This document shows, piece after piece, positions 10,343 through 26,073 of a stretch of DNA of 30,791 nucleotides. The DNA comes from a virus. Made by a program: the position numbers and the translations under genes. Positions within the stretch are counted from its first letter, which is position 1, and each line of letters opens with the position of its first letter. Under the pieces are notes generated by a model. The model did not search any database, was not told where the DNA came from, and worked only from the letters and a program-made list of their open reading frames with translations. The stretch is taken from IMG/VR virus record IMGVR_UViG_3300025889_000604, positions 1 to 30,791 of that record; one strand, 5' to 3'.

Positions 10343-11962
10343 ATGCTTGATATCCCGCACATTGATCTCGCCCGGCAAGAGTTCGAACTTGATCGCGCCG
10401 ACGCCGAAGATAGCCTTGCCGAGTTCATCCGTCAGGCGTGGCATGTGCTTGAGCCGGGGCAGGATTATGTCCACGGGTGGCATATTGATTTTATTTGCGA
10501 GCATCTTGAGGCCATTACAGATGGCGTCGAGTTCGACAGCGGCGCGCATTACAATCGCCTGCTAATTAACGTGCCGCCGGGCACGATGAAGTCCCTCACT
10601 GTTGGCGTGTTCTGGCCGGCGTGGGAGTGGGGGCCGCGCAATATGCCCCATTTGCGCTACGTTTGCGCATCTCACAGCCAAAGCCTCGCCATCCGCGACA
10701 GCATGAAGATGCGGCGCCTGATTATGTCGGAGTGGTATCAGGCGAGGTGGGGCGACCGCGTCAAGCTGGTCGGCGACCAGAACGCAAAAACAAAATTTGA
10801 GACGACGTCGACAGGGTTCCGGGAGGCTGTCGCCGCCGGGTCGATCACTGGAGCTCGCGGTGATCGCGTGATCATTGACGACCCGCATAGCGTTGAGGGC
10901 GCCTCGTCTGATCAAATGCGGGCGTCAACCATTGAATGGTTTCTGGAGGCAGTGCCAACGCGCCTCAATAATCCGAAATCCAGCGCGATTGTCACCGTTA
11001 TGCAGAGGCTGCACCATGAAGATGTCTCGGGCGTCATCCTCGACCGCAATCTTGGCTACGATCACATTTGCCTGCCGATGCTTTATGATCCCGCCGCCGC
11101 CAAGGAAACGATGCTGGGCTTCAAGGACCCGAGAACAGAGGATGGCGAACTTCTTTTCCCGCAGCGTTTCCCTGAAGACGTGGTAGATCGAGATCGCCGG
11201 GTCATGGGCGAATACGCCTTCGCCGGCCAAATGCAGCAAACGCCAACGCCGCGCGGCGGCGGCGTCATCAAGCGGGACTGGTGGCAGCGCTACAATCGCG
11301 ATAGCTACCCGCCATTCGATTACATTCTCGCGTCCCTCGATACGGCCTACACCCTTAAGCAGGAAAACGACCCAAGCGCCATGACAGTGTGGGGTGTGTG
11401 GACGGGCGGAGACATGACGGCGCAGATCACGCGGGCGCTGACGGTCGATGGCTCTCCGACTATGATGGCCAGGACTTACACGCCAGAGCACCCCAAGGCC
11501 ATGATGATCTACGCCTGGCAGGACCGCCTCGAATTGCATGAGCTCGTCGAAAGGGTGCGGGAGACCATGCAGAACTATGGCGTCGACAAGCTGCTGATCG
11601 AAAACAAGGCGGCCGGGCACAGCGTTGCGCAGGAGATCAGACGCGTTTATGGTCACGACGATTTTGGCGTTCAGCTGATCGATCCAAGGGGGCAGGACAA
11701 GCTTGCGCGGCTCTACAGTGTTCAGCACCTTTTTGAAGAGGGGCTGATCTACGCGCCAGACAGGTCGTGGGCGGATATGGTCATTACGCAGGCCGAGCAG
11801 TTTCCAAAGGCCGCCCATGACGATCTTGTCGACACGGTTAGCATGGCGCTGCGCCATCTTCGGGAGCTCGGGCTGCTTGTGCGCGGGGCGGAATTTACCG
11901 CAGAGCTCAACGATAGTATGCTGCATCGCGGCTCTGAGGAGGAGCCGCTCTATCCAGTATAG
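10343..11962 (+). CDS. terL: Terminase large subunit
   Basis: This 539-residue ATPase-nuclease drives DNA into the prohead and cuts it. The ATPase domain has a deviant Walker A VPPGTMKS (77-84), adenine-region ASHSQS at about 109-114, and Walker B RVIIDD (175-180). The nuclease domain has the acidic residues expected of the RNase-H-like fold: SLDTAY (Asp333), LLIENKAAG (Glu420) and HDDLVD (493-497). The length is normal. The start has only a weak GGCCCG upstream, six bases after the previous stop, so coupling may supply initiation. Confidence 0.95.
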   Translation: MLDIPHIDLARQEFELDRADAEDSLAEFIRQAWHVLEPGQDYVHGWHIDFICEHLEAITDGVEFDSGAHYNRLLINVPPGTMKSLTVGVFWPAWEWGPRNMPHLRYVCASHSQSLAIRDSMKMRRLIMSEWYQARWGDRVKLVGDQNAKTKFETTSTGFREAVAAGSITGARGDRVIIDDPHSVEGASSDQMRASTIEWFLEAVPTRLNNPKSSAIVTVMQRLHHEDVSGVILDRNLGYDHICLPMLYDPAAAKETMLGFKDPRTEDGELLFPQRFPEDVVDRDRRVMGEYAFAGQMQQTPTPRGGGVIKRDWWQRYNRDSYPPFDYILASLDTAYTLKQENDPSAMTVWGVWTGGDMTAQITRALTVDGSPTMMARTYTPEHPKAMMIYAWQDRLELHELVERVRETMQNYGVDKLLIENKAAGHSVAQEIRRVYGHDDFGVQLIDPRGQDKLARLYSVQHLFEEGLIYAPDRSWADMVITQAEQFPKAAHDDLVDTVSMALRHLRELGLLVRGAEFTAELNDSMLHRGSEEEPLYPV

Positions 11963-12204: not shown

Positions 12205-14640
12205 ATGCCGATGACGCCGGGGCTCAATCCCAATCTCCGCCTCCAGCAGGATGAGCCGGAGGCGGGGCTCGCGCCGGCGGAAGATGTCGTAATTGAAATT
12301 TCTGAAGGCAGCCCAAAGATCGACACCGACGACCGCGGCAACATTATGCGGATCGAGCACGACGATGGATCCGTCAGCCTGTCACTTGACGGCAAACCAA
12401 TTGAGGAGGCATCAAGAGCCGAGCGGGCGCAGGAGTGGTTTGCCAACCTGGTCGATGACATTGACGCCGGAACGCTTAACCTGATCGCCGACGACCTCCT
12501 GCGCGGCGTGCGGGATGACATTGAAAGCAGGAAGGACTGGATTGAGGATCGGGCGCAGGGCATAAAGCTCCTCGGCCTCACCGTCGAAATCCCCGGGCTA
12601 CAGGGCGCCACCGACGGAGCCCCGGTTGAGGGCATGAGCCGCGTCCGCCACCCGCTTTTGCTTGAGGCCGTCCTCCGCTTTCAGGCGAATAGCCGATCCG
12701 AGATGCTGCCGACCGACGGGCCGGTGAAGGTGCGCGTCGACAGTATCGGCACAACGATCCAGACGGACTTTCTGGCGGACGCGCTGGAAAAGGATTTCAA
12801 TGCCTACCTCACCGCTGTCGCCAAAGAATACTATCCTGATACTGACAGGATGTTGTTTATGCTGGGTTTCGGCGGGACCGCATTCAAGAAGGTTTACTTC
12901 TGCCCCTTGCGCGGTCGCCCGGTCAGCGAAACGGTGGATGCGGATGACCTCATCGTTAACAATTCCGCGACGACCCTTCAGGACGCCAAGCGGATAACGC
13001 ATCGCGTTTACGCCAAGGCGTCGACGGTGCGCAGGCTGCAAATCCTTGGCGTCTACCGCGACATTGATCTGGCGACGCCAATGTTCGAGGCGCATGACGC
13101 CGTGCAGAGGGAGAAAGCCGAGCAGCAAGGCATTGCCGTCGAGGCGCGTAATCCGGAGGATCGTGAGCGCGAGATTTATGAAATTTACTGCGAGCTCGAT
13201 ATCCCCGGCTTTGAGCATAAATACAGGGGCCAGCTCACCGGACTTGAAATCCCGTATCGCGTAACTATCGATTTGTCTTCCCGGGAAGTCCTTTCCATTG
13301 TCAGAAATTATGACGAGCCAACGGGCGACGAAGGCGACGAGTTGCCGGAGGCGCGCCAGAACTTTGTCAAATACACATTTGTGCCCGGCATGGGCTTCTA
13401 CGATATCGGCCTTCTCCACATCCTCGGGAACACGACCAACGCCGTGACGGCGGCGTGGCGCGAAATGCTCGACGCCGGCATGTATGCCAATTTCCCCGGC
13501 TTCCTGATGGCCGACACCGGCGCCCGCCAGAACACGAACATCTTCCGCGTTCCGCCCGGCGGTGGCGCCCTTGTGAAGACGGGCGGCCTGCCGATCAATC
13601 AGGCGATCATGCCGCTCCCATACAAGGAGCCGGGCGGCGCCATGATGACGCTGGTCAGCAACATGGTCGAGACAGGGCAGCGCGTTGGGGGAACGGCGGA
13701 GCTGGCCGTTGGCGAGGGGCGGCAGGACGCCCCGGTCGGGACGACGCTGGCTTTGATCGATCAGGCGACAAAGGTTATGAACGCGGTCCATAAGCGGATG
13801 CATGCCGCGCAGGCGGATGAGTTCCAGCTAATGTTGCGCTGCTTCAGGGAGCATCCAAATAGTTTCTGGAAGAAGTTGCGCGGGCCATCGCTTGAGTGGA
13901 ACGAGAGCATCTTCAATCAGGCGATCAACAATTACGAGCTCGTTCCGCAAGCGGACCCAAACACTGCAAGCCACACCCAGCGCGTAATGAAGATCATGGC
14001 GCTTAAGCAGCTGCAACAGGCGAACCCGAGCATGTATGACGCCGTGGCAATTGATCGCGCCGCCATGAAGGCGATGGGGTGGAGCAACCCTGAGCAATTC
14101 ATTGCCGCGCCGTCTGCGCCTGTGCCGCCGCCCGAGGCGCAGGCAAAAATGGCTGAGCTGCAAATCAAGAAGCAGGAAGCAGACACAAAGCAGATGCTGG
14201 CGCAGGCCGAGGTCGCCAAAATCCAGAGCGAGATGGGCGCCGCCGGGCAGGACGGCCAGCAGCTTGATCCCAATAAGATTATCGACATCCAGATGAAGCA
14301 GGCCGAGATCCGCCAGAAGGAAATGGACCTTGAATTGAAGCGCATGGAACTTGAGCAGGCGATGCGGCAATCCGGCATGGACATGCAAATGCAGCAGGCC
14401 GACATCACCGCCAAAATGCGCCAGAACCTGATCGACCAGAAGGACAATGAGCTGGACAACTGGAACCGGCAAAAGGATCGCGAGAGCTCTGAGCGCATTG
14501 CGGCGGTGAAGCTGGCGCAGGACGTCATGAAGACGCCGGGCGGCTACGCCGAGATGAAGAAGATCCTTAGCCCTGATTTGCTAAGGACGCTTGAGAGCAG
14601 GGAAGACACGCCTCCTCCGAGCATTTCCGGGCTGGAGTAA
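12205..14640 (+). CDS. Portal protein
   Basis: This 811-residue protein should form the head's dodecameric DNA portal and the terminase dock. It follows the large terminase with one small gene between. Residues about 95-200 (WIEDRAQGIKLLGL, RVRHPLLLEAVLRFQANSRS) and about 370-500 (FYDIGLLHILGNTTNAVTAA, FRVPPGGGALVKTG, ELAVGEGRQDAPVGTT) fit the podovirus portal family. The last 160 residues hold a long Gln/Met/Lys/Glu-rich coiled coil (KMAELQIKKQEADTKQ onward), the expected barrel or tail extension. AGGAAC precedes the ATG. The size is typical of short-tailed phage portals. Confidence 0.88.
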   Translation: MPMTPGLNPNLRLQQDEPEAGLAPAEDVVIEISEGSPKIDTDDRGNIMRIEHDDGSVSLSLDGKPIEEASRAERAQEWFANLVDDIDAGTLNLIADDLLRGVRDDIESRKDWIEDRAQGIKLLGLTVEIPGLQGATDGAPVEGMSRVRHPLLLEAVLRFQANSRSEMLPTDGPVKVRVDSIGTTIQTDFLADALEKDFNAYLTAVAKEYYPDTDRMLFMLGFGGTAFKKVYFCPLRGRPVSETVDADDLIVNNSATTLQDAKRITHRVYAKASTVRRLQILGVYRDIDLATPMFEAHDAVQREKAEQQGIAVEARNPEDREREIYEIYCELDIPGFEHKYRGQLTGLEIPYRVTIDLSSREVLSIVRNYDEPTGDEGDELPEARQNFVKYTFVPGMGFYDIGLLHILGNTTNAVTAAWREMLDAGMYANFPGFLMADTGARQNTNIFRVPPGGGALVKTGGLPINQAIMPLPYKEPGGAMMTLVSNMVETGQRVGGTAELAVGEGRQDAPVGTTLALIDQATKVMNAVHKRMHAAQADEFQLMLRCFREHPNSFWKKLRGPSLEWNESIFNQAINNYELVPQADPNTASHTQRVMKIMALKQLQQANPSMYDAVAIDRAAMKAMGWSNPEQFIAAPSAPVPPPEAQAKMAELQIKKQEADTKQMLAQAEVAKIQSEMGAAGQDGQQLDPNKIIDIQMKQAEIRQKEMDLELKRMELEQAMRQSGMDMQMQQADITAKMRQNLIDQKDNELDNWNRQKDRESSERIAAVKLAQDVMKTPGGYAEMKKILSPDLLRTLESREDTPPPSISGLE

Positions 14641-14644
14641 GCCA

Positions 14645-17600
14645 ATGATCAAGGATACCCGCACGCCTCCCGTGAAGTTGCTCGAAGACGAGTATCCCAC
14701 GCACTACCTGCCGCATGTCGGCAGGCAGGTGATGGAGAGCGGTGGCGCCCCAAAACAGCTTCCTCCCATTGATGTTGGGGCCATTGCGCCTCAATACAAA
14801 GAGCCCCCAAAGCCCGTCGTATCTGACATGATGCAAAACCAAATTGCCGAAATTGGCGACAGGGAAATTGCAAAAGGGCTTGCAAAATACGGTCGTGGAC
14901 CTCTTGTTTCTTCCAATGTCGGGATGCCGCTGAAGGCCGGGCCGGAGCAGTCTTTCTGGGAAAAGGCTAGAGACAAAATGCTGGGGCTGGACTATGGCCG
15001 CCCGTCCGTTGAGCGCCGTCAGGCCGTGGAGGGCATAGGAAGCGCTATAGAAGCAGCCAAGCTTGCTGCATATGCGTACCCGGCGACCCGCGCCCCAATG
15101 GGTGTTTTTGATTTTACAAAGTCGGTAGCGGAAGGACGACCAATTGAGGCGTCTCTGGCGTCCGCTTTTTTGCCGGGCGGTAAATACGCCAAATACGCAG
15201 GCGCGGCTTTGGCCAGCCAAGCCGGGCCGGAAGAGGCCAAAGCCACCTTCATTGGCGAGGCGGCTCGCCTGACGCCGTCTCTGCGCCGCGCCCTTGAGCT
15301 TTCACGCAAGTATCTGAACGTTGATCGCCCGCAGGACGTCTGGCGGCAATACGACTGGGCTCCCGACCCCTCCGGACGCATGGTCAGCGAGCTTTCCGAC
15401 GAAGGCGCCCGCCTGATCCCGCAGGGCCTGGCCAGGTTCAGAACGGGTGAAACAATGTCTCTTGGCGACATTTTGTCGCACCCTGAGGTATATGATCGCT
15501 ACCCCTCGTCCTACACGACGAAGGTTACGCCTTATCTTCCGAAGGAAGAGGGGGAGCGCGGCTATTACTCGCCGCTTTTGGATTATATCGGCATCAATGA
15601 GCGGCTTGGTGACCGCCAGCTAATGAAAACGCTGCTTCATGAGCATCAGCACCGCATCCAGAACATTGAAGGCATGTCGCCGGGTGCGCGGACTGAGATG
15701 TTTAAGGGACCTGAGGCCGTCGCCCGGCCTCATGAGGAGCGGCTGTCCCAGCTCCTTGGCGCCATGAAGCTTCAGGAGATTATGCGGGAGAACCCCGGCA
15801 TTGATCCGCTCGATGCGAAAGTTATTGCCGGGGCCAGAGGCATCCCGATTGTCGGCGGCTCTACTCATCACACGCACAAGGGCGCGGAGGAGTTGGCTCA
15901 AGAGGCAGAGTTTTTGCGCCGTGGCATAGACGATATTTACGCGACGCACCCAACGGCGCATGAGCAGTATCTCCGCACGCTTGGAGAGTGGTCAGCCCGC
16001 CTGCCCGGCGAGCGTCTTGAGCTGACGATGCCTGAGCGCCGCGTCCGTTTTCCGTTTGACCCCAATTACCCGGTGAATGTTTTGCCGGTAACATCGAGGC
16101 CGCTCGGAAACCTTCCTGGCCCCCGGTGGGAAGCAGAGCGCGAGCGGGCGATTGAGCTGGCTCGCCAGCTTCGTCGTGAGCCGTTGCCGGCAGAGCCGCG
16201 CCCATCTCTCTCCCCTGAGCAAGAGGCTCTTGAGGAAGACATGATGCAGTTCGCCCTTGAGGCCGAGGCGCGCAAGCGGGCCGGGGTTCCGCCGCCAGCC
16301 TTTGGCCCTGCGCTCTTGCCGACCATCAAGAAGGCAGGCGGTGGACCGATTGCAAAGCTTCTCGGCAAGCTTTTGCCCGAGGGATCAGGCTATGTGCCGC
16401 GCAAGGGGTTCCCGGGCGTCGTCAATCTCCCCGGCATTGGCCGCGTCGAGCCGCGACCCATCGAGCCGATTGAAAGCATTTCCCGGCGCTTTGCCGGCCC
16501 CGCGCACGACGCCCCGGTCGTCCCGATCAACCCGGAGTTTTCCGAGCGCGTCGCCCGCGAATATGAAGGCATGCGGCACGCGCCAAAAGACCCCGTTGTG
16601 CGCCGCGCCTTTGAGGCCCTGGCGGATGAGACAATGGCGCAGTATCGCGCCGCAAAGGATCTCGGGCTGGACATCAGGTTCCTGAAACCCGGGCAGGCGG
16701 ACCCCTACGCGGCAAGCCCGGGCCTTGGATACGAGGACATTGTCAATCGCGGCCGCCTGTTCGTGTTCCCGACCGAGCAGGGCTTCGGCAGCACGGGCGG
16801 CCTGAACGCAACCAACGTTCTCCTGAAGGGCGCGGGGCAAGTGGGCGACAAGCCGGATGCGGTCGTCAACGACGCCTTCCGCGTCATCCACGATCTTTAC
16901 GGGCACTTTGGCCCCGGCAACCCGTTCTTCCGCGCCCCGGGCGAGGAGCGGGCGTATCAGCTGCACAAACGCATGTTCTCGCCTGAGGCCGTGCCGGCGT
17001 TGGCGTCAGAAACGCGCGGGCAGAACAGCTGGGTTAATTTTGGCCCGATGGCCGAGCGCAATCGCGCCGCCTCCGGCGCGGAAACCCATTACGCTGATCA
17101 AAAGACGGGCGTGATGGCGCCGTGGGCGACGGAAGAGCCTCCGCCTGTTGGTGCGGATATTGAGCAGTTTATTCTCAACAAAAGAGAGAGCGGCGGCCGC
17201 GCCAAATACGAAGGTGGCGGCAAGGCGGCGCTGATCGGAGCCGCCTTGAAGGCCGCAGAGGAGTTCATCCCCTACACCAAAAGGATGTTCTTCACTCACA
17301 ATATTGACCCGCTAAATCTTAAAAGGGCCATCGAAACCGGCGGATTGCCGGCGCCAAGCATGGCGGTATCAACGCCGACAACCAGTGATCTTTCTGATTT
17401 CGGTCCGATTGCCCTTGTCGGCAAGCCTGAGAAATTTAGCCCAACGGCCAAGTCGCCCGTTTATGGGCAGGATATCTGGTCGCCTCGCGTTCCGAATACG
17501 AGGGAATATGAGCGCACCATGTTCTCGCCCAGTGACCCCAATGCATTTGAGGGCCGGGGATTTTTCAGCATGCTGCATGATCGCCCGATGCCTGGCACAA

Positions 17601-19543
17601 TGGAAAATTTGCTCGCCGAGATGAACGCCAGGCCCGTTATTGGCGGGGAGTTCATGCTGCCTGGAGCCAAGCGTCCGGATGAGGCGGACGTTGGTTATAT
17701 TATATCTACCCTGACGCCTCGATACAAAACAATGCAGGATCTTCAGGCCGCCCGCGAGCGGCTTGTGCCGCCCGGAATTTTTGGCCAGCGACTTTTTGAC
17801 GTCAGCAGGGAGCACGCAGCGCTCTCAGAGGCCTTGGGCGGTCGGGGCAAGGCGGACGATCACTTTGGCCACGCTATTCTTGACGCCATAGAGGCCCGCC
17901 GGGCTGCCGAACCGGGGCAGAGGGGTCTGCCGTTTTTTTCGCGAATACGCTCTCATTACCCGGAAATATCGCCCGAGCAGGAAAAACGCGTTGGGCGGCA
18001 CATCACAAGTCTTGCGGAGATGCCTGCGAAATATTTCGAGGCCAAGCCCGGGCGCGCGGTTAGTTTGTCGGATGAGTTTGTCGGCGCCGCTATCCCGGCT
18101 TCGAGGGCCAGCGAGCTGGGGCCGCTTCTTGAGCGCGCCGGCATTCGTCGAATTGAGCAGTATGATCCGGTGCGGTCAAACATGGGAACAACTATTATGG
18201 AGCGTTTCCCTGAGGCCGGATTTGCGTCAGGGGGCGTTGTGCCGCGCGCGGACGACGATGACTTCTTCCGCCGCATGGCTTTGTGGACCTATGCGGTTGC
18301 GCCGCTGTTTGCCGGGCCGCGAGATGTGCGTCGCCATGGTTTTGCAGGCGGCGGAAAAATTATTGAGCAAGCGATCAAGGCGGCAAAGCTTATTACGTCG
18401 GAAGGCAAGCCAACCGTTCGTGGTATGGTTAATGAGGCACCGCTTTTCCCTGACGTCTACAAAAACCCTCGACTGCTGGCTGAGGAAGCCGAAAGCCGCG
18501 TCGCCCCCGAGGATCCGTTGCTGAAGCGCCTGTGGGGCGTCACCCGGGAAGACATGTTTAACATTGCTGGCTCGCGCCCGGGCAATAGGGAGCCTGTCCT
18601 GGCCGCCGGCTCGGCAAATCCCCGCGGAGTTAATTACGCCGCAGAAGGCGTCATGGTTCCTGAAAACGCCGGGCGCCTGCAAAGCATTTTGGAAGAAGGG
18701 CGCAAGCAGCCAGGGTTAAGAACAGGCATGATGCCGTGGTATTACATGGACCCGGTTCATGCGCGTCTTGAGCAGATGTTCGATCCCGACGAGGCGCGCA
18801 ACAGATACAATCTCCTGAACACGTCGATTGCGATGATGTCGCCGGCCAGTAGCGTGCCGACGGAAATCAATCGCGGCCTCGGGGCATATCATCTTGCGCT
18901 GCAGGGGCGATTTGAGGACTTTATTCGCGGAGGCGGCAAGCCCAGTGAAGCCATTGGGGGCATTCTTCCGGCATACATGCGTGAGCGCATGCTTGGGCAC
19001 AAGGTTCACTCAACGTCGCAAGCTGGCCCCTGGGAGAGATACATGCGAACGGGCGTCGTCGACATGGGCAGCCCAAAGGTGACGCTGTATGCGCAATCAT
19101 CCGGTGTGCCGGCCACTGGTTTTCAGACCAGGCTTCCGGTGCCCGACGCACATTACACGCGCATCCTCGGCATGCCGGATGTCCGCAGGACAGCGGACCC
19201 GGCAGTTTCCATGAAAATGAACGAGTATCGCCCCGTCGGCCCGTGGTTCCGCGAAGAGGTTGCAAGGCCGCTTGAGATGGAGGCCGTTCCTGCGCAGGCG
19301 CTACTGTGGGGGACGGGGTCCGGAGCCACTGGTGTGGATAGCCCAATTGGGGCGCCGAAGCTTGAAATGCTTTCGCAGCATATCGGAAATGTTGCGCGTC
19401 ACTATCGCGTTTCCCCCGAGACGGCGAGAGACCTCATCCTGCAAGGCACGCTTTATTCAAGCGGCGGCTCTGTAATCAATCGCGCTCTTGATGTAGTATC
19501 CAATCTTCCACGTCATCAGGTGGAGCCGGGGACGCCCGGGTAA
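14645..19543 (+). CDS. Giant multi-domain polyvalent virion protein
   Basis: This 1632-residue protein starts at 14645 (GGAG eleven bases upstream) right after the portal. It has several segments matching large polyvalent protein-associated domains, found in phage proteins thought to be ejected with the DNA: (1) HEHQH (332-336) in a LLHEHQHRIQNIEG context, a possible HExxH zinc-protease-like site; (2) about 740-800, DAFRVIHDLYGHFG then ETRGQNSWVN; (3) from about 882, THNIDPLNLKRAIETGGLPA; (4) a C-terminal region (about 1450-1600) with HKVHSTSQAGP and VPAQALLWGTGSG. Short Gly-doublet linkers (FASGGVV, FAGGGKI, YEGGGKA) separate them. It is probably an internal virion protein entering the host. 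Catalytic activity is unproven. Confidence 0.85.
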   Translation: MIKDTRTPPVKLLEDEYPTHYLPHVGRQVMESGGAPKQLPPIDVGAIAPQYKEPPKPVVSDMMQNQIAEIGDREIAKGLAKYGRGPLVSSNVGMPLKAGPEQSFWEKARDKMLGLDYGRPSVERRQAVEGIGSAIEAAKLAAYAYPATRAPMGVFDFTKSVAEGRPIEASLASAFLPGGKYAKYAGAALASQAGPEEAKATFIGEAARLTPSLRRALELSRKYLNVDRPQDVWRQYDWAPDPSGRMVSELSDEGARLIPQGLARFRTGETMSLGDILSHPEVYDRYPSSYTTKVTPYLPKEEGERGYYSPLLDYIGINERLGDRQLMKTLLHEHQHRIQNIEGMSPGARTEMFKGPEAVARPHEERLSQLLGAMKLQEIMRENPGIDPLDAKVIAGARGIPIVGGSTHHTHKGAEELAQEAEFLRRGIDDIYATHPTAHEQYLRTLGEWSARLPGERLELTMPERRVRFPFDPNYPVNVLPVTSRPLGNLPGPRWEAERERAIELARQLRREPLPAEPRPSLSPEQEALEEDMMQFALEAEARKRAGVPPPAFGPALLPTIKKAGGGPIAKLLGKLLPEGSGYVPRKGFPGVVNLPGIGRVEPRPIEPIESISRRFAGPAHDAPVVPINPEFSERVAREYEGMRHAPKDPVVRRAFEALADETMAQYRAAKDLGLDIRFLKPGQADPYAASPGLGYEDIVNRGRLFVFPTEQGFGSTGGLNATNVLLKGAGQVGDKPDAVVNDAFRVIHDLYGHFGPGNPFFRAPGEERAYQLHKRMFSPEAVPALASETRGQNSWVNFGPMAERNRAASGAETHYADQKTGVMAPWATEEPPPVGADIEQFILNKRESGGRAKYEGGGKAALIGAALKAAEEFIPYTKRMFFTHNIDPLNLKRAIETGGLPAPSMAVSTPTTSDLSDFGPIALVGKPEKFSPTAKSPVYGQDIWSPRVPNTREYERTMFSPSDPNAFEGRGFFSMLHDRPMPGTMENLLAEMNARPVIGGEFMLPGAKRPDEADVGYIISTLTPRYKTMQDLQAARERLVPPGIFGQRLFDVSREHAALSEALGGRGKADDHFGHAILDAIEARRAAEPGQRGLPFFSRIRSHYPEISPEQEKRVGRHITSLAEMPAKYFEAKPGRAVSLSDEFVGAAIPASRASELGPLLERAGIRRIEQYDPVRSNMGTTIMERFPEAGFASGGVVPRADDDDFFRRMALWTYAVAPLFAGPRDVRRHGFAGGGKIIEQAIKAAKLITSEGKPTVRGMVNEAPLFPDVYKNPRLLAEEAESRVAPEDPLLKRLWGVTREDMFNIAGSRPGNREPVLAAGSANPRGVNYAAEGVMVPENAGRLQSILEEGRKQPGLRTGMMPWYYMDPVHARLEQMFDPDEARNRYNLLNTSIAMMSPASSVPTEINRGLGAYHLALQGRFEDFIRGGGKPSEAIGGILPAYMRERMLGHKVHSTSQAGPWERYMRTGVVDMGSPKVTLYAQSSGVPATGFQTRLPVPDAHYTRILGMPDVRRTADPAVSMKMNEYRPVGPWFREEVARPLEMEAVPAQALLWGTGSGATGVDSPIGAPKLEMLSQHIGNVARHYRVSPETARDLILQGTLYSSGGSVINRALDVVSNLPRHQVEPGTPG

Positions 19544-19560
19544 TCTGGCCGGAGTAACAA

Positions 19561-20634
19561 ATGTCTAACCTTGCCAAAAAGGCCCGCGAGGCCATGAAAT
19601 CAAAGGCTCGTCAGTGGGCGGGAGCCAAGGACCAAAAGGTCGACAGCTCCGATTGGTCTCCCGCAGAGCCAATCAATGCCGACGTAAAAACCGGCATGCG
19701 CCCGGTGTCACGCCGCGCTTATAAGTCCGGCGGCAAGGTTGAGGGCGACAGCTACGCAAAGCAAATTGTCAATCGCAATGTCAAAGAGGCGAACGAAAGC
19801 CGTCCGGGCATCAAGCATGTTGGCGGCATGAAGGCTGGCGGCCGAACAAAAAAGAACATCGGCGGCGTCCTGGAAAAAATCAGTCCGGCCTACAGCCTGC
19901 TGCGATCTGCGCAGCGCGGCGGCCGCGATGAAGAACGCGACGCAGGCGAGCAGATGAAGGGAGCCATGATGGCTAACCTCGCCAATCGCAAATCAGGCGG
20001 CGGCGTTAAAGACAAAAAGGCTCTCGGGGCAATTGACCCATCCGCCAAACGAGAGGCGGCGGGGCACTATAAAAAGGGCGGCGAAGCCAAACCCCCGCAG
20101 GCCGCCAGCCGCATGAGGCGCGCAACGGGCGGCGCCGCGTTGGACGTTGCCGGCATGAAGAAGGCGGGAAAGAAGCACGCCTCCGGAAAGGGCAAGACCA
20201 ACATCAATATTGTTATTGCCGCGGGGAAGGGCCAAGGCATGCCTCCGGCTGATGTAATGGCGCCGCCGGCGGCAATGCCGATGCCGATGCCGCCGCCGCC
20301 AATGGCTGGGCCGCCGGCTGCAGCCATGCCGCCTATGCCTCCAATGCCGCCCGCCGGAGCTGGCCCCATGCCCCCAATGCCGCCCGTTCCGGGCCGCAAG
20401 GCCGGGGGGCGCATCACCAAGGCCGCCAGCTCCTACAAAGACATGAAAGCCGGGGCGGCAAGCGGCGAGGGGCGTCTGCAAAAGACCGAAATCGCCCGAC
20501 GCCACAAGGATGCCCCCGCCCGCAAGTCCGGGGGGCGCATTAGCAAGGTGGCCAAGTCCTATAAGGATATGACCGCTGGCGCCGCAAGCGGCGAGGGGCG
20601 CCTTCAGAAAACCGATATTGCGAAGGCAAAGTAG
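19561..20634 (+). CDS. Gly-doublet, Pro/Met-rich virion-associated protein
   Basis: This encodes 357 residues, highly basic with low complexity. It repeats Lys-x-GG units (YKSGGKV, MKAGGRT, RKSGGGV, KKGGEA, RKAGGRI). Residues about 227-278 are a Pro/Met run (PMPMPPPPMAGPP and related). Two 34-residue repeats follow at 279-312 and 321-354. The first 45 residues form a Lys-rich amphipathic helix. The Lys-x-GG units are like those of the giant upstream protein and of small proteins downstream, so they may be a shared virion-assembly or membrane-contact signal. I recognise no domain. It follows the giant gene by 17 bases. Confidence 0.8.
   Translation: MSNLAKKAREAMKSKARQWAGAKDQKVDSSDWSPAEPINADVKTGMRPVSRRAYKSGGKVEGDSYAKQIVNRNVKEANESRPGIKHVGGMKAGGRTKKNIGGVLEKISPAYSLLRSAQRGGRDEERDAGEQMKGAMMANLANRKSGGGVKDKKALGAIDPSAKREAAGHYKKGGEAKPPQAASRMRRATGGAALDVAGMKKAGKKHASGKGKTNINIVIAAGKGQGMPPADVMAPPAAMPMPMPPPPMAGPPAAAMPPMPPMPPAGAGPMPPMPPVPGRKAGGRITKAASSYKDMKAGAASGEGRLQKTEIARRHKDAPARKSGGRISKVAKSYKDMTAGAASGEGRLQKTDIAKAK
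20395..20622 (+). repeat. Tandem 102-base repeat encoding 34 residues
   Basis: Two copies (20395-20496 and 20521-20622) sit in the 3' end of the Gly-doublet gene, separated by 24 bases. Both encode RK[AS]GGRI[TS]K, then SYKDM, AGAASGEGRLQKT and an Ile-Ala end. The protein copies differ at about seven positions and the DNA at more, many synonymous, which suggests purifying selection on the repeat. Confidence 0.9.
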
Positions 20635-20656
20635 ATACAGCGGCCACTCGCTGTAA

Positions 20657-20696
20657 GGGGTCGGAGGCCTTGACCCCCTTCTCGGCTTCCGACCCC
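20657..20696 (+). other. Long hairpin after the Gly-doublet gene
   Basis: A 13-bp stem (GGGGTCGGAGGCC with GGCTTCCGACCCC, one G-T wobble; arms 20657-20669 and 20684-20696) with a 14-base loop. No T run follows. It is 22 bases past the stop and 18 bases before the next start. It may be a processing site or a weak terminator. Confidence 0.75.
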
Positions 20697-20714
20697 GACC
20701 AATAGGGGGATATT

Positions 20715-20930
20715 GTGGCTACTTACACGCGCAACAATATGTTTGCTCAGGAACTTGAGCGGCTGATAGATGCAGAAGTCGAGAGGATGAAAGAGAACGT
20801 TTCTTTGGGATTTGTGGAAAATTTCAGCGACTACAAATACGTCGCCGGAAAGTTGGCGGGGCTTCGCTCTGTCAAGGACCTGATGGCCGAGGCTTCGGCT
20901 ATCTGTGATGGCAAACCGCGCGAAAACTAA
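20715..20930 (+). CDS. Small hypothetical phage protein (GTG start)
   Basis: This encodes 71 residues from a GTG at 20715, with AGGGGGAT four bases upstream; the next in-frame ATG is eight codons on and lacks a comparable site. The sequence is helical and acidic (FAQELERLIDAEVERMKENV, FSDYKYVAGKLAGLRSVKDL). Similar small genes occur between portal and scaffold genes of podoviruses; a head-assembly role is inference. Confidence 0.75.
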   Translation: MATYTRNNMFAQELERLIDAEVERMKENVSLGFVENFSDYKYVAGKLAGLRSVKDLMAEASAICDGKPREN

Positions 20931-20941
20931 GGGGTGAGCGC

Positions 20942-21334
20942 ATGACTAACCTGATAATGGATCACGAAGGCGATCCAAAGCAAAAGCTTATCGATGCCCT
21001 TGGCGACTTGTCGGAAATTGAGTTGTTCAACAACAAAATTCTTGTCGCCGTTTACATCAGGCCGGAGAAAACAAAGAGCGGCCTGTATCTCAGCGACAAA
21101 TATCGCGATGAAGATCGGTTCCAGGGGAAGGTTGGCCTGCTTGTTGGCGCCGGCCCGGATGCCTTTGCCGACGAAAATGGCGCGTGGTTTCGCGGAACCA
21201 GCTTCAATCTTCATGACTGGCTTGTTTTCAGGCCATCTGACGGTTGGAGCATCACAGTAAATGGCGTTTTGTGCCGCGTTTTGTCGGACACAAACGTTCA
21301 GATGCGCATTCAGTCTCCCGACGCAGCGTGGTAA
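20942..21334 (+). CDS. GroES-like co-chaperonin protein
   Basis: This encodes 130 residues. The core has GroES/cpn10 architecture: NNKILVAVYIRPEKTKSGLY then LSDKYRD, QGKVGLLVGAGPDAF, then HDWLVFRPSDGWSITVNGVL and CRVLSDTNVQMRI. This parallels cpn10's opening strand, mobile-loop KT-GG-I-(L/I) motif, the GKV-AVGPG strand and the C-terminal D-I strand. By analogy with T4 gp31 it would cap the host GroEL and help fold a capsid protein; it is encoded among head genes, fitting this. The putative mobile loop (KTKSGLY) has a single Gly where bacterial GroES has two. The ATG follows GGGGTGAG. Confidence 0.78.
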   Translation: MTNLIMDHEGDPKQKLIDALGDLSEIELFNNKILVAVYIRPEKTKSGLYLSDKYRDEDRFQGKVGLLVGAGPDAFADENGAWFRGTSFNLHDWLVFRPSDGWSITVNGVLCRVLSDTNVQMRIQSPDAAW

Positions 21335-21346
21335 TGGAGAAAAGTA

Positions 21347-22273
21347 ATGTCTGAAGATCATGATCACGTCGATGTTGTTATTGAAGAGACAAAGGAAGAG
21401 AAAAAAGAAGAAACGCAAGTAGAAATCGTCGACGAAACGCCAGAAACGGCGGCAAAATCGGAAAAGCCTCCGGTAATTGAGCCCCAGGAAGGCATTCAGG
21501 AGCTTAAAAGGCGCCTTGAGGCCGAGCAAAAGGCTCGTCAGGAGGCTGAACACCGCGCCAGATTGGCTGCGCAGCATGCCGAGCAGGCCCAAGGGCATGT
21601 TGAGGACGCCAACTACCAGCTTGTCGTCAACGCAATCGGCACACTGAAGGAACGGTCAGACACCCTCAAGGCCGCCTACAAAGAGGCAATGAGCGTTGGC
21701 GATTATGACAAGCTGGCGGACATCCAGGAGGCTATTTCCGTCAATGCGTCGCAGCTCTCAGAGCTTAATCGCGGCGCAAGAGCAATGAAAGAGGCGATGG
21801 ATGAGGCGGTGGAGAGGGCAAAACGCCAGCCTGTTGAGCCTATGCCCCGCACGGCCGATCCGATTGAGGATATGGCTTCGCGTGTTTCTGAGCGGTCGGC
21901 TTCGTGGTTGCGTGCAAATAGGGAAAATCTTCAGGACGCGCAGAAAATTGGCCGGATGTTTCGCGCGCATCAGGATGCCGTTGAAGACGGCATTGTGGCG
22001 GATAGCCCTGAATACTTCGCCTACATTGAAAACCGGCTTGGCATAAGAAAGCAGGCGGCTGAAGACAACGCAATGTCGGAGGCCGCCGCGCCGGTCGCCC
22101 CTCGGCGCGCCCCCCAGCCCCCTCCGGCCCCAGTGTCTCGCGGCACGTCGCGTCCTAATGTGATCAGGCTGACAAAGGATCAGGCTGAGCACGCGAAGAT
22201 GTTTGGCATGACGGAGAAGGAGTATGCGCTTGAACTGACGCGCCTGCGTGAAGAAGGCAAGGTCGCACATTAA
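21347..22273 (+). CDS. Putative capsid scaffolding protein
   Basis: This encodes 308 residues: an acidic, disordered N-terminus (EETKEEKKEETQVEIVDETP), then a long charged helix from about residue 50 (ELKRRLEAEQKARQEAEHRA) predicted as coiled coil, then helices to about residue 240, a Pro/Ala-rich stretch (PRRAPQPPPAPV) and a basic C-terminal helix (EYALELTRLREEGK). This layout of acidic start, coiled coil and basic C-terminal helix is typical of scaffolding proteins, and it lies ahead of the capsid genes. GGAGAAAAG precedes the ATG. Confidence 0.75.
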   Translation: MSEDHDHVDVVIEETKEEKKEETQVEIVDETPETAAKSEKPPVIEPQEGIQELKRRLEAEQKARQEAEHRARLAAQHAEQAQGHVEDANYQLVVNAIGTLKERSDTLKAAYKEAMSVGDYDKLADIQEAISVNASQLSELNRGARAMKEAMDEAVERAKRQPVEPMPRTADPIEDMASRVSERSASWLRANRENLQDAQKIGRMFRAHQDAVEDGIVADSPEYFAYIENRLGIRKQAAEDNAMSEAAAPVAPRRAPQPPPAPVSRGTSRPNVIRLTKDQAEHAKMFGMTEKEYALELTRLREEGKVAH

Positions 22274-22284
22274 CGGAGACAAAT

Positions 22285-22842
22285 ATGAATACGCCTGCAG
22301 TGACAAAAAAAGGAATGTTCGCCAAAGCCGCCGCGTCAATTGACGAGGCTCCGCCAATGAGGCCGCAGATGAGAGATGAAGACCCTCGGGCGAGAGCCGC
22401 GAAGCGCGCAGCAGAACTTCGCGGCCACCTTGAGGAGGACCTGGCCGGCTCGGTTGATGAATTTTATGTCGACCCGGAGATGGTGCAGGATGGGTGGACG
22501 TATGAGTGGAAGCGGCACACAGTCATGGGGGCCGAGGATCCTTCCTACCAAATCCATCTTGCGCGCATGGGGTGGACGCCTGTGCCTACATCGCGACACC
22601 CCGGCATGATGCCTTACAACACGACAGAGACGATCATTATGCGCAAGGGCATGATCCTGATGGAGTGCCCGACCGAAATTGTCGAGGAGCGTCGGGCGTT
22701 TGATATAAAAAAGGCCCGGGATCAGGTGCGGGCGAAAGAGGAGCAGCTTGCGGGCACTCCGGACGGGACGATGACCCGCGATCACCGGGAAACGCGGCCA
22801 AAGATCAAAAAGTCTTACGAGCCCATGCCCATCCCGGAGTAG
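22285..22842 (+). CDS. Conserved phage virion-region protein
   Basis: This encodes 185 residues. The segment FYVDPEMVQDGWTYEWKRHT, GWTPVPTSRHPGMMP, IIMRKGMILMECP, then the C-terminal DQVRAKEEQLAGTPDGTMTR and a PKIKKSYEPMPIP ending match a phage protein I recall near scaffold and capsid genes. Its function is not established. The middle is a beta-rich domain; the C-terminus is charged helix plus a Pro-rich tail. It is probably head-associated, as a non-major structural or assembly protein. GGAGACAAAT precedes the ATG. Confidence 0.8.
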   Translation: MNTPAVTKKGMFAKAAASIDEAPPMRPQMRDEDPRARAAKRAAELRGHLEEDLAGSVDEFYVDPEMVQDGWTYEWKRHTVMGAEDPSYQIHLARMGWTPVPTSRHPGMMPYNTTETIIMRKGMILMECPTEIVEERRAFDIKKARDQVRAKEEQLAGTPDGTMTRDHRETRPKIKKSYEPMPIPE

Positions 22843-22846
22843 TGTC

Positions 22847-23062
22847 ATGCATCACACAACCTTTCAGTATCTTGAGCCATCTGATCGGCAAAAGGGCCGG
22901 ATGCAGGAAATCCGGGATGCGGCCCAGACCTACATGGAAAGGGTCATGGACCTTGTGCCTCCGGGCGACGATAAGGAGCATGTCATCCGCCTGATCCGAG
23001 GCTCCGCAATGTGGGCGAACGTCGCCATAACACGCTACGCGGACGGCACGCCAAGAGAGTGA
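22847..23062 (+). CDS. Acb2-like anti-CBASS cyclic nucleotide sponge
   Basis: This encodes 71 residues, the last gene before a terminator and four bases after the previous stop (GGAG seven bases before the ATG). The pattern MQEIRDAAQTYMERVMDLVP, then MWANVAITR (55-63), matches the small Acb2/Tad1-hairpin family (a helix with IR, a turn with Cys/Val-Pro, then M-W/F-A-N-x-x-I-A/T-R). Known members bind cyclic di- or trinucleotide messengers of host CBASS immunity and prevent effector activation. Variation: the usual REKSL-type segment reads KEHVI, and the helix before MWAN is IRLIRGSA. The assignment rests on motif memory, not a search. Confidence 0.72.
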   Translation: MHHTTFQYLEPSDRQKGRMQEIRDAAQTYMERVMDLVPPGDDKEHVIRLIRGSAMWANVAITRYADGTPRE

Positions 23063-23074
23063 CTTCTCAAAAAA

Positions 23075-23104
23075 GGGGCGGCTTCTGGCCGCCTCTTTAC
23101 TTTT
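23075..23104 (+). terminator. Terminator after the Acb2-like gene
   Basis: Stem GGGGCGGC/GCCGCCTC (23075-23082 and 23088-23095; one G-T pair) with loop TTCTG, followed by TTTACTTTT. It is 12 bases past the stop codon. It would separate the packaging/scaffold block from the capsid gene block. Confidence 0.85.
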
Positions 23105-23124
23105 CATCATTGTTTATAGATAAT
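23096..23124 (+). promoter_or_regulatory. Candidate promoter for the capsid block
   Basis: TTTACT (23096-23101), 17-base spacer, GATAAT (23119-23124). The -35 begins inside the terminator's T tail. A transcript start near 23131 would leave a leader of about 110 bases before the first capsid-block gene. The -10 is good, the -35 moderate. Confidence 0.5.
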
Positions 23125-23239
23125 GCCCCCAGGCTGCAAGACGGCTCGGGCCTCCCCGGCGTGAGGCATTAGCACTTCCTGGTTCTACAATCGCCCCGGC
23201 GCGCGATGAAGGAGCCTCCTGTAAAAAGGAGAACCTGTC

Positions 23240-23827
23240 ATGGCGAACACAGCCGCCTACAACGGTTTCCAGCAGTATAGCGGCACCGGCTCTGCACCAA
23301 CCTATGAGCAGGTAGCCGTTCAGATCGCTTACAATGCAAGCGCGATTTATTACGGCGATCCCGTAAATCCGGATGGCAATGGCTATGTCGTAGTCGGCGT
23401 CACCTCCTCGGGGTCGGGCAACACTCAGGTTGCCGGCATTTTTGTTGGGTGCAAGTATCTCTCAATCGCGCAGAAGCGTGTCGTCTGGTCAAACTATTGG
23501 CCGGGATCCGACGTGGCTTCGACACAGACGGTTGAGGGCTATATCATCAATGACCCCAATGCAAAGTTCGTTGCTCAGTTCGGCAACGTGTCCGTCGATC
23601 AGACATACGTTAACGCCAATGTCGGGTTTAACATTGGGTCTGGCACGGCGGCCAACGGTCTTTCCGGCGCGTATCTTGCGACCGTTGGGACAGACAATAG
23701 CTTGCCGTTTCGTGTTGTCGCCCTTGTAACTGATCCGCCTGGTCAAAACGGAACAGAAAGCGGCGCCTATCAAAAGGCAATTGTCGCCTTCAACAACGTA
23801 AGCACCAAGCAGCTTACTGGCGTTTAA
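23240..23827 (+). CDS. Putative capsid-associated (decoration) protein
   Basis: This encodes 195 residues, just upstream of the major capsid gene. It is beta-rich with many Gly, Ser and Asn residues (AIYYGDPVNPDGNGYVVVGV, then VAGIFVGCKYLSIAQKRVVW, SNYWPGS) and resembles structural proteins seen beside the capsid gene in podoviruses, with an early pocket of the type YxGD.V and a later PFRVVAL. No catalytic motif is seen. A head decoration or trimeric fibre-like role is inferred. GGAG at 23229-23232 is about eight bases before the ATG. Confidence 0.72.
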   Translation: MANTAAYNGFQQYSGTGSAPTYEQVAVQIAYNASAIYYGDPVNPDGNGYVVVGVTSSGSGNTQVAGIFVGCKYLSIAQKRVVWSNYWPGSDVASTQTVEGYIINDPNAKFVAQFGNVSVDQTYVNANVGFNIGSGTAANGLSGAYLATVGTDNSLPFRVVALVTDPPGQNGTESGAYQKAIVAFNNVSTKQLTGV

Positions 23828-23843
23828 AAAGGAGTAAGGACCA

Positions 23844-24749
23844 ATGGCTGTTAATCTTTCCGCCATCAAAGACCTTCTCCTCCCCGGCCTGCGGGGAATT
23901 GAAGGCAAGTATGAGCAGATCCCGTCGCAATACGACAAGATCTTCACGAAGCACAACTCTAAAATGGCGCTTGAGCGCACTGCAGAGATGCGCTTCCTGG
24001 GGCTTGCCCAGCTAAAGACGGAAGGTGGTCAGACGGCGTTCGATAATGGCGCCGGCGAGCGTTATGTGTATAACCAGGAGCACGTTGAAATCGGCCTTGG
24101 TTACGCCATTACGCGCAAGGCCATCGACGACAATCTGTATAAGTCACAGTTCATGCCGTCGAACCTTGGCCTGATTGAAAGCTTTCATCAGACGAAGGAA
24201 ATCTACGGCGCGAATGTCCTCAACACGGCTCAGACCTACTCTGCGTCCGTTGGCGGCGACGGCAAGGCTCTTTGCGCCACCGATCACCCGATTGATGGAA
24301 GCACCGTCTCAAACAAGACGACGGTCGACCTGAACGAGGCGACGCTTCTTAATGCGATGATCTCAATCAGGACGAATTTCAAGGACCAGGCTGGTCTGAA
24401 GATTTTCGCCCGCGGTCGTCGTCTGGTTGTGCCGCCGGCTCTTGAGCCGACTGCAATCCGCCTGACGAAGACTGAGTTGCGCCCCGGCACGGCGGACAAT
24501 GATGTGAATGCGATCATGATGACTGCCGGCGGATTGCCGGAGGGTTACATGTCCAATGACTTCTTGACCTCCTCGACGGCGTGGTTCCTGCTGACCAACA
24601 TCGACGGCCTCTCCTACATGGAGCGTATTCCGTTCGAGACTGATATGCAGATCGACTTCGTTACAGACAACTTGCTGGTCAAGGCTTACGAGCGCTACTC
24701 GTTCTCGTATTACAACTGGCGTTCAATCTACGGATCGTTCCCGTCGTAA
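23844..24749 (+). CDS. Major capsid protein (Mu gpT-like)
   Basis: This 301-residue protein forms the icosahedral shell. Features seen: an N-terminal helix (LLLPGLRGIEGKYEQIPSQY) without the long delta domain of HK97, a beta-rich centre (VEIGLGYAITRKAIDDNLYK), FARGRRLVVPPALEP and a C-terminal AYERYSFSYYNWRSIYGSFP. The RRLVVPPALEPTA and TKTELRPGT signatures fit Mu-gpT-like capsids, consistent with a separate scaffold gene upstream. GGAGTAAGGACC precedes the ATG. A terminator follows. Confidence 0.9.
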   Translation: MAVNLSAIKDLLLPGLRGIEGKYEQIPSQYDKIFTKHNSKMALERTAEMRFLGLAQLKTEGGQTAFDNGAGERYVYNQEHVEIGLGYAITRKAIDDNLYKSQFMPSNLGLIESFHQTKEIYGANVLNTAQTYSASVGGDGKALCATDHPIDGSTVSNKTTVDLNEATLLNAMISIRTNFKDQAGLKIFARGRRLVVPPALEPTAIRLTKTELRPGTADNDVNAIMMTAGGLPEGYMSNDFLTSSTAWFLLTNIDGLSYMERIPFETDMQIDFVTDNLLVKAYERYSFSYYNWRSIYGSFPS

Positions 24750-24758
24750 TAAATGCAG

Positions 24759-24790
24759 AGCGGGGCCATAAATGGTCCCGCTTTGTCTTG
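24759..24790 (+). terminator. Terminator after the major capsid gene
   Basis: Stem AGCGGGGCC/GGTCCCGCT (24759-24767 and 24774-24782; one G-T pair) with loop ATAAAT, followed by TTGTCTTGG. The T run is interrupted, so read-through to the downstream virion genes is likely partial, as for an abundant capsid transcript. Confidence 0.8.
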
Positions 24791-24864
24791 GTGCTTGAAT
24801 TGCGTCGACCGGCCAAGCGGACGCTGCACAGACGACGCAATCAATCTTTGTGCAGGAGGAGTAA

Positions 24865-25332
24865 ATGGGAACAACAACCTTTACTGGCCCCATCAGGGCC
24901 GGCAACGTTCTTAACACCACCGGGTCTTCCGCCGGATCTGTGAGGAACGTTGGATACGTCCAGATGGTTCAGTCTGTCGCCGTCACGCAGTCTGCCACGG
25001 CCGCCGCCACGGCAATCTGTTTGCCTGCGAATAGCCAGATTGTCGGCATCACCGCTCTTGTATCCGTTGCCTTTACTGGCGCCTCTGCGGGGCTGAATAT
25101 TGGCACCTCGGCTACGTCAACAGAGCTCGTTGCGGCTGCAAACTTCCTGCTTAATGCCGTTGGGCTTTTTTCGGCAAGCCCGGGCACTGACGCCACGCGC
25201 ACGGCGGCCTGGGTAGACGTTGGGGCGAACGACGTGATCATTTATGTCAAAGCAGCCAATGCGCCTTCCGGGTCCACTGGGGCGGCTACGCTTAGCATCG
25301 AATATGTGCAGGCCTACAACCTGACACCGTAA
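24865..25332 (+). CDS. Small virion structural protein
   Basis: This encodes 155 residues rich in Ala, Ser, Thr and Val: MGTTTFTGPIRAGNVLNT, then VVQSVAVTQ-type strands, AAATAICLPANSQIVGITAL and EYVQAYNLTP at the end. The composition and position after the major capsid gene fit a beta-sandwich structural protein (decoration, vertex or connector). AGGAGGAG lies directly upstream of the ATG. The exact role is unknown. Confidence 0.72.
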   Translation: MGTTTFTGPIRAGNVLNTTGSSAGSVRNVGYVQMVQSVAVTQSATAAATAICLPANSQIVGITALVSVAFTGASAGLNIGTSATSTELVAAANFLLNAVGLFSASPGTDATRTAAWVDVGANDVIIYVKAANAPSGSTGAATLSIEYVQAYNLTP

Positions 25333-25344
25333 CAGGAGGTTCTC

Positions 25345-25557
25345 ATGGGTGCTTACAAAGGAAAGGCTTCGACCATCAAGGAAGCCGGAGAGAAGACCGA
25401 CGGCTTCAAGAAGGGTGGCGGCTGCATGAAAAAGGGCGGCAAGGCCGTTATGTCCAAGGCGGAGAAGGGCGAGAAGCCTGCCCGCGCCACGGGCGGCGGC
25501 GTGTTTTCGTCAGCCAAAGGCGGCACGCCGCGCGGGGCGGCCCCGAAGCCGTATTGA
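25345..25557 (+). CDS. Lys/Gly-rich virion-region small protein
   Basis: This encodes 70 residues of basic low complexity with Lys-x-GG units (KKGGGCMKKGGKA, ATGGGVF, KGGTPRGAA). Such proteins recur near podovirus head genes and are of unknown function. It shares its units with the Gly-doublet gene and the giant protein upstream. ACAGGAGGT precedes the ATG. It probably binds nucleic acid or membranes by charge, but no evidence fixes that. Confidence 0.75.
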   Translation: MGAYKGKASTIKEAGEKTDGFKKGGGCMKKGGKAVMSKAEKGEKPARATGGGVFSSAKGGTPRGAAPKPY

Positions 25558-25589
25558 TGGCGGCGCTTCTTGTGGCATAGAGCAATCAG

Positions 25590-25612
25590 CGGGGGCATCG
25601 AGCCCCCGTTTT
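25590..25612 (+). terminator. Terminator after the Lys/Gly-rich gene
   Basis: Stem CGGGGGC/GCCCCCG (25590-25596 and 25602-25608) with loop ATCGA, followed by TTTT. It lies between two small virion-region genes. Confidence 0.85.
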
Positions 25613-25628
25613 GCCAAGAGAGGGCGAT

Positions 25629-25898
25629 ATGGCGAAATCTCCTGCCTGGCAGCGGGCTGCCGGAAAAAATAAAGAAGGCGGCTTAAACGCCAAGGGGCGC
25701 GCGTCGGCGAAGGCGCAGGGCATGAACCTGAAGCCTCCGGTGTCGAAGGAACAGGCGGCTAAGAGCGATAAGGCGGCGAGTCGTCGTTCCTCATTCTGTA
25801 GCCGTATGACCGGTATGAAGAAGAAGCTGACTGGCGCCGCGGCTGCGGCCGATCCTAATAGCCGCATCAACAAGGCCCTCAGAAAGTGGGACTGCTGA
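25629..25898 (+). CDS. DUF6321-type small phage protein
   Basis: This encodes 89 residues from the ATG at 25629. Signature segments SPAWQRAAGKNKEGGLNAKG, SSFCSRMTGMKKKLTG, then DPNSRINKALRKWDC match a small basic phage family I know as DUF6321. It is highly basic with conserved Cys in SFCSRM and a C-terminal WxC. The function is unknown; zinc binding or DNA contact are guesses. The longer frame upstream reaches into the terminator and is less likely. Confidence 0.85.
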   Translation: MAKSPAWQRAAGKNKEGGLNAKGRASAKAQGMNLKPPVSKEQAAKSDKAASRRSSFCSRMTGMKKKLTGAAAAADPNSRINKALRKWDC

Positions 25899-25899
25899 T

Positions 25900-26073
25900 A
25901 TGTCCAAGCCATTCTGGGAAAAAGACGCCCCAAAAGACGCCAAGAAGCGTGCTTTGAGCGTGAAAGGTGTTAAAATGGCAAAGGCAAAAGCTCGCGCCGC
26001 CGGCCGGCCATACCCGAACCTGGTCGACAACGTAGCGGCCGCCAGAGCGGGCCACACGAAGGGAAAACGATAA
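25900..26073 (+). CDS. Small basic virion-region protein
   Basis: This encodes 57 residues starting MSKPFWEKDAPKDAKKRALS, then KGVKMAKAKARAAGRPYPNL and VDNVAAARAGHTKGKR. It is strongly basic (many Lys/Arg), two bases after the previous stop, and its TAA overlaps the next ATG (TAATG). Small Lys-rich proteins of this type occur in podovirus head regions. The function is unknown. Confidence 0.7.
   Translation: MSKPFWEKDAPKDAKKRALSVKGVKMAKAKARAAGRPYPNLVDNVAAARAGHTKGKR

Follow-up and report, generated by a model that had tools for sequence, protein, structure and literature searches.

How does a gene resembling the cyclic-nucleotide sponge Acb2 come to lie among the head genes of a phage, and what would its product do there? 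The question is raised by a 30,791-nt stretch of viral DNA (here called the window), in which a 71-aa open reading frame (ORF) sits between a block opened by a GroES-like gene and the genes leading to the major head protein (Table 1). The original prediction assigned this ORF, here termed acb2, to the Acb2/Tad1 hairpin family, placed it in one transcript with scaffold and capsid genes, and suggested that its divergence could change ligand choice. What is new here is the anatomy of the insertion; the protein itself belongs to the known Acb2 hairpin family. Among the papers listed by our literature searches, none was on an acb2 gene in a head operon.

Table 1. Features of the window around acb2 (window positions)
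Feature	Position	Strand	Remarks
TerL	10343-11962		Profile label
Portal	12205-14640		Profile label
GroES-like gene	20942-21334	+	phrog_3188, E 5.5e-5; Pfam Cpn10 17.4 bits, below the cut-off of 21.1
308-aa gene	21347-22273	+	Called scaffold from its position and composition alone
185-aa gene	22285-22842	+	Directly upstream of acb2; conserved in acb2-less relatives
Shine-Dalgarno-like motif, GGAG	22836-22839	+	Within the 3' end of the preceding gene, 7 nt ahead of the acb2 ATG
acb2-like gene	22847-23062	+	71 aa, ATG to TGA; PF24729 hairpin protein
Y8 codon	22868-22870	+	Aligned with T4 Acb2 Y8 (binding-site tyrosine) and PaP2 Tyr11
R23 codon	22913-22915	+	Aligned with T4 K23 and PaP2 K26; basic residue kept
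R48 codon	22988-22990	+	Aligned with T4 T68; invariant Arg in alignment A1
MWANVAITR motif	23009-23035	+	Second long helix
Intrinsic terminator-like site	23072-23106	+	Stem 23072-23098, 12 pairs, T-rich tail
Promoter-like site, TTTACT-N17-GATAAT	23096-23124	+	Overlaps the end of the terminator-like site
195-aa gene	23240-23827	+	phrog_37556, unknown function; first gene past the terminator
Major head protein	23844-24749	+	phrog_371, E 6.6e-15; Pfam Mu-like_gpT over cut-off

The 71-aa ORF is real and conserved and is not a chance frame. Its ATG lies 4 nt past the stop codon of the 185-aa gene, and CGGAG is found at the place equivalent to the Shine-Dalgarno-like motif in three other loci that carry the gene (L005, L006, and L008). 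An independent profile was built from 73 relatives (L009-L081), with L002-L008 left out. This profile scored 107.9 bits (E 8.2e-33) against the acb2 frame, which was its sole match at E ≤ 10 among the 608 frames of the window, and it matched none of the 14,417 frames from 20 block-shuffled windows. The ORF is also under strong purifying selection. Compared with its counterpart in L005 (86% identical), dN/dS (NG86) was 0.083 at a dS of 0.99, with 5, 6, and 28 differences at codon positions 1, 2, and 3, respectively; the ratios against L006 and L008 were 0.20 and 0.21, where dS was saturated (1.6 and 1.8). All of the motifs named in the original prediction are present in the ORF, namely, I22-R23 in the first long helix, V37-P38 in the turn, KEHVI (residues 43-47), IRLIRGSA (47-54), and MWANVAITR (55-63).

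Membership in the Acb2/Tad1 hairpin family is well supported, resting on the Pfam model together with intermediate sequences. In the profile search that had been proposed with the assignment, the window protein matched Pfam PF24729 (Acb2_Tad1_hairpin) with an E value of 3.3e-6 and 27.6 bits, a marginal score that exceeds the cut-off of 27 by 0.6 bits. It also matched phrog_1454 (2.9e-8), a PHROG labelled "unknown function". A scan of viral contigs gave 135 relatives, the best 80 of which were kept, and 40 of these were aligned with the window protein (41 rows, alignment A1). PF24729 was matched by all 41 rows at E ≤ 0.001, the best value being 5.3e-12, and the known proteins T4 Vs.4 and PaP2 p26 scored 71.4 and 66.1 bits against the same model. 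When the A1 profile was used, T4 and PaP2 Acb2 scored 5.9 and 6.0 bits, each equalled by 2 of 500 shuffles, and the intermediates Phabba, Tunturi_1, and S-2L scored 43.8, 35.5, and 33.3 bits, equalled by none of 500. Profile-profile comparison matched A1 to these intermediates with an E value of 7.2e-16 (probability 98.6) and to the T4/PaP2-type set with an E value of 4.9e-5 (probability 67.8); the match between the intermediates and the T4/PaP2-type set was weak (E 3.7e-4, probability 36.6, 25 columns). Neither the window protein nor the A1 profile retrieved an Acb2 chain from the sequences of solved structures; the one row obtained was a designed helical bundle. An NCBIfam search of the window protein gave no match, and tblastn against 50,697 phage records found 7 records with a best E value of 3e-3. 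Taken together, the PF24729 score over the cut-off, its recurrence in 41 of 41 rows, and the profile-profile matches uphold the predicted family assignment.

The predicted hairpin fold with paired helices was likewise supported by a structural model. In the AlphaFold2 model (single chain, 41-row alignment), helices span residues 3-7, 13-36, and 41-62, with a mean pLDDT of 92.3 (68 for residues 1-10). The window protein is thus modelled as a short N-terminal helix and two long antiparallel helices, and the Acb2 protomer is described in the same terms in PMC12043709 and PMC10419184. In a VIA-align search, T4 Vs.4 with cGAMP (7uq2) ranked at the top with a Z score of 7.0, followed by an unrelated RNA polymerase II chain at 6.9; thus, the fold search alone proves nothing, as it leaves Acb2 inseparable from other hairpins. 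Foldseek with the model gave no match at E ≤ 0.001, with 8h2j ranked 34th (E 7.9).

The residues of the putative pocket were compared in a 10-member alignment of the window protein, relatives, intermediates, and T4 and PaP2 Acb2 (A2). Y8 is the sole invariant column of A2; it is kept in at least 90% of A1, with Phe in L062 and L063. R23 is invariant in A1, and the PaP2 residue aligned with it, K26, is one that we take to be a ligand contact. R48 and R51 are invariant in A1 as well. In A2, the column of T4 T68 holds Thr in PaP2 and S-2L and Arg in Tunturi_1, Phabba, and the window protein (R48), and the column of T4 F82 holds Ala in PaP2 and T62 in the window protein. In T4 Acb2, Y8A is reported to disrupt cyclic dinucleotide binding (PMC12657218, PMC12657230), T68M to lower affinity (PMC12657230), and F82C to diminish binding (PMC12657218). 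The replacement of F82 and T68 by T62 and R48 argues against simple equivalence with the T4 pocket. For the altered ligand choice suggested by the original prediction, R48 is a concrete candidate residue.

Compared with known systems, the window protein shares with T4 Acb2 (Vs.4, PDB 7uq2) the PF24729 hairpin, Tyr8, the basic residue at position 23, and the MWA motif in the second long helix. T4 Acb2 differs in its 88-aa length, its long inter-helix insert, its residues F82 and T68 in place of T62 and R48, and the position of its gene in the tk/vs/regB region, which is not a head operon. PaP2 Acb2 (p26; PDB 8h2j, 8ixz) also shares PF24729, and its Tyr11 and Lys26 align with Y8 and R23, but it is 93 aa long and 18% identical to the window protein in A2. 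Its gene is on the minus strand, between a plus-strand virion block and minus-strand replication genes. The PF24729 proteins of S-2L, Tunturi_1 (Tunturiibacter phage), and Phabba (Mycobacterium phage) are closer in form, sharing the lack of an inter-helix insert, the Y, Q, and R positions, and an ANxxxA-type motif; their genome positions differ, lying in tail genes, in a run of small hypothetical genes, and beside tRNA genes, respectively. In cyanophage S-2L (MW334946.1; L166:3977-4192), the protein is encoded by an unannotated 71-aa ORF that scores 69.1 bits with PF24729; this ORF was taken to start at an internal ATG within a longer frame, and it has a tail protein gene on one side and the tail assembly gene on the other. 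For Tad1 of a Clostridium botulinum prophage (PDB 7uav), the hairpin domain is common by Pfam definition, and VIA-align gave a weak row (Z 5.1). Tad1 combines an N-terminal antiparallel beta-sheet with two C-terminal helices; the beta-sheet domain is missing from the 71-aa window protein, whose model contains no strand of 3 or more residues.

Where does the transcript carrying acb2 end? The head-assembly block opens with a gene for a GroES-like co-chaperonin, which is present in many capsid relatives. For the 308-aa gene that follows, the PHROG search gave two weak matches, with E values of 0.014 and 0.036, and both are to tail families. A 1650-codon frame (14591-19543), whose only matches are partial ones to PHROGs of unknown function, lies between the portal gene and this block. 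The stem directly after acb2 was the longest of 16 terminator-like sites at positions 19000-26000 (shuffles averaged 8.7), and a terminator-like stem was present in 58 of 66 homologous gaps in a scan run without shuffle control. Promoter-like sites were at chance level in a 7-kb scan of the window (3 found versus 2.8 expected). Across homologous gaps, such sites were found in 43 of 70, versus 216 of 1400 shuffled gaps. With terminator-like and promoter-like sites located after acb2 and ahead of the capsid gene, the upstream operon probably ends with acb2. Judged from these signals, acb2 seems to close the block formed with the GroES-like, 308-aa, and 185-aa genes, and transcription probably starts anew for the capsid gene. 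The predicted cotranscription stands in part: acb2 shares a block with the probable scaffold gene, in which it comes last, and a terminator-like site follows directly, but this site and the promoter-like site separate it from the capsid gene.

In this position, acb2 is an accessory cassette, and its site among the head genes is fixed. From the capsid matches listed (600 stretches), 80 loci with close capsid relatives (86-91% identity) were kept, and the 185-aa gene and the 195-aa gene are both present in 66 of these; many of the 80 are short contigs, so the relevant count is the 66 with both flanks. An acb2 match was found in 0 of the 80 and 0 of the 66 among the matches listed. These zeros describe a sample and not a frequency, since L005, L006, and L008, with capsid genes 86-95% identical, are absent from the capsid matches listed, were found by another scan, and all have acb2. 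The gene occupies this site in the window phage and in L005, L006, and L008; L002-L004 are identical to the window over 3.3 kb around acb2.

The empty site could be read directly from the relatives without the gene. The gap between the 185-aa and 195-aa genes is 397 nt in the window; it measures 104-240 nt in 59 of the 66 relatives and 492-671 nt in 7. The 177 nt past acb2 align with the whole empty gap of all six acb2-less relatives compared (L085, L110, L124, L122, L126, and L095) at 80-83%, with 135-141 identical positions over 163-172 columns, gaps excluded, and scores of 71-84 versus at most 7.5 for shuffles. The acb2 piece itself gave no alignment to the empty gaps of these six. Since the DNA after acb2 corresponds to the whole empty spacer, the insertion is a clean one of about 220 nt, consisting of the gene and little else and lying between the stop codon of the 185-aa gene and the terminator.

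Other genes occur at the same site. Two of the 7 long gaps hold minus-strand HNH_3-AP2 endonuclease genes (L117:3840-4334 and L147:3544-4089), so the gap looks like a general cassette or homing site. Among the other long gaps, small ORFs lie before the terminator-like stem in L115 (825-1079) and L134 (4865-5185), and the gaps of L138 and L139 are of this type in length and contents; in L125 (4853-5095), a small ORF lies after the stem. The ORFs of L115, L125, and L134 matched no Pfam family, and those of L115 and L134 matched no PHROG either; it is possible that all three are further counter-defence cargo. A 1139-nt gap with other small ORFs is found at the site in MW202675 (L001). The 195-aa protein just downstream is 52% identical between L005 (1808-2395) and the window, whereas identity reaches 86-95% for its neighbours; this points to local recombination immediately past the cassette site.

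The history of the cassette was followed on a 61-row tree of the 308-aa and 185-aa proteins. In this tree, the window and L005 stand beside six acb2-less rows in a group of eight with a support of 100, and L008 groups with the acb2-less L122 and L126, also with a support of 100. By parsimony, acb2 presence changes three times on the tree, as gains or losses. The tree of the 71-aa protein neither supported nor excluded one lineage for the acb2 genes of the window group, L006, and L008. A single acquisition with later losses and repeated insertion are therefore both given as possible histories, unranked. Distant capsid relatives (28-48% identity) occur in 4 of the 289 genomes in the class of G005, and no host is named by them; the genome contig L165 (Rhizobiales bacterium) encodes a 47%-identical relative.

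Across the family, gene context is mixed. Of 63 non-identical relatives, 18 have structural or packaging genes and 17 have replication or recombination genes as profile-labelled neighbours within 3 kb; the other 28 have none with a label. These labels undercount structural cases, as many flanks are short and L006 is scored as "none" despite an 86%-identical capsid gene after acb2. Some relatives adjoin SSB, Sak4-like, and DNA polymerase genes. With relatives found near replication genes as well as near structural ones, the family is not tied to structural blocks, although structural placement is frequent; the idea that the gene lies there rather than in an early block does not hold as a family rule.

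What, then, would the protein do? In our analysis, with a probability of roughly 0.7, it would be an Acb2-type hairpin sponge for cyclic oligonucleotides, carried as an accessory cassette in the head block and made with head-assembly proteins. Its homology to Acb2 of T4 and PaP2 suggests that it would oligomerise, presumably as a hexamer. Such an oligomer would be expected to hold the second messengers of CBASS without cutting them, and the effectors would then stay off; both the ligand and the inhibition of CBASS are extrapolated from the homologues. Late timing is suggested by the place of acb2, past the 185-aa gene and ahead of the terminator at the end of the GroES/scaffold-region block, from which it would be made with the head-assembly proteins. 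Published CBASS triggers include RNA from terminase genes (PMC10686824) and the Bas13 prohead protease (PMC12409349), and escape from CBASS by a phage lacking acb2 is aided by a capsid mutation (PMC10419184). Because such triggers come from the same late gene set, production of the sponge would coincide with the alarm. Against this rationale, the wild-type capsid gene alone was reported to cause no CBASS-dependent toxicity (PMC10419184). Acb2 also carries a cost, as it is reported to set off Panoptes (PMC12657218, PMC12657230), which could favour a scattered presence of acb2.

As an alternative, the protein could be a hairpin of the Acb2 family whose binding is directed at a different signal or has been lost. 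The signal could be, for instance, a cyclic oligoadenylate, the 2',3'-c-di-AMP decoy of Panoptes, or some other nucleotide, and R48 and R51 would reshape the pocket. The exchange of T4 F82 and T68 for T62 and R48, the invariance of R48 in the 41-row alignment, and the varied ligand range of homologues reported in PMC12043709 all speak for this explanation. However, Y8 and the basic residue at the K23/K26 position are kept, and the strong purifying selection argues against a dead protein, so that we regard it as improbable.

A head-assembly or virion component that has a hairpin by coincidence and is used with scaffold and capsid would fit the equal position of the gene in the head blocks of the window phage, L005, L006, and L008. 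A part of the head would hardly be expected to be missing from all 66 relatives with both flanking genes among the matches listed, to change three times on the flanking-gene tree, or to have family relatives beside replication genes such as SSB, and this explanation is very unlikely. The marginal single-sequence Pfam score is what could point to a chance ORF or a spurious family match; that idea is refuted by the 107.9 bits to an independent profile that found nothing in the shuffled frames, by the dN/dS of 0.083, and by the 135 relatives. The Acb2-type sponge thus remains the preferred reading. A broader proposal would join several of these points, but it is tentative and, as a whole, rather doubtful. 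It envisages that, throughout a large group of environmental phages, the gap from the 185-aa gene to the terminator of the head block is a standing cassette site at which counter-defence genes come and go, possibly with the help of HNH-AP2 endonucleases. The cargo in the window phage would be a sponge whose timing matches the late RNAs and structural gene products that trigger CBASS, with a pocket retuned by R48 and R51, and the subfamily with these residues (135 relatives from one scan) would bind a ligand other than those of T4 and PaP2 Acb2.

The locus offers an unusually clean natural experiment, in which one head block is found with and without an Acb2-type sponge and the empty site can be read base by base. 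If the sponge works, the phage places counter-defence among its late head genes, the very source of published CBASS triggers. In that case, the site would also be a conserved slot, simple to read across a widespread group of metagenomic phages, in which further counter-defence genes may occur.
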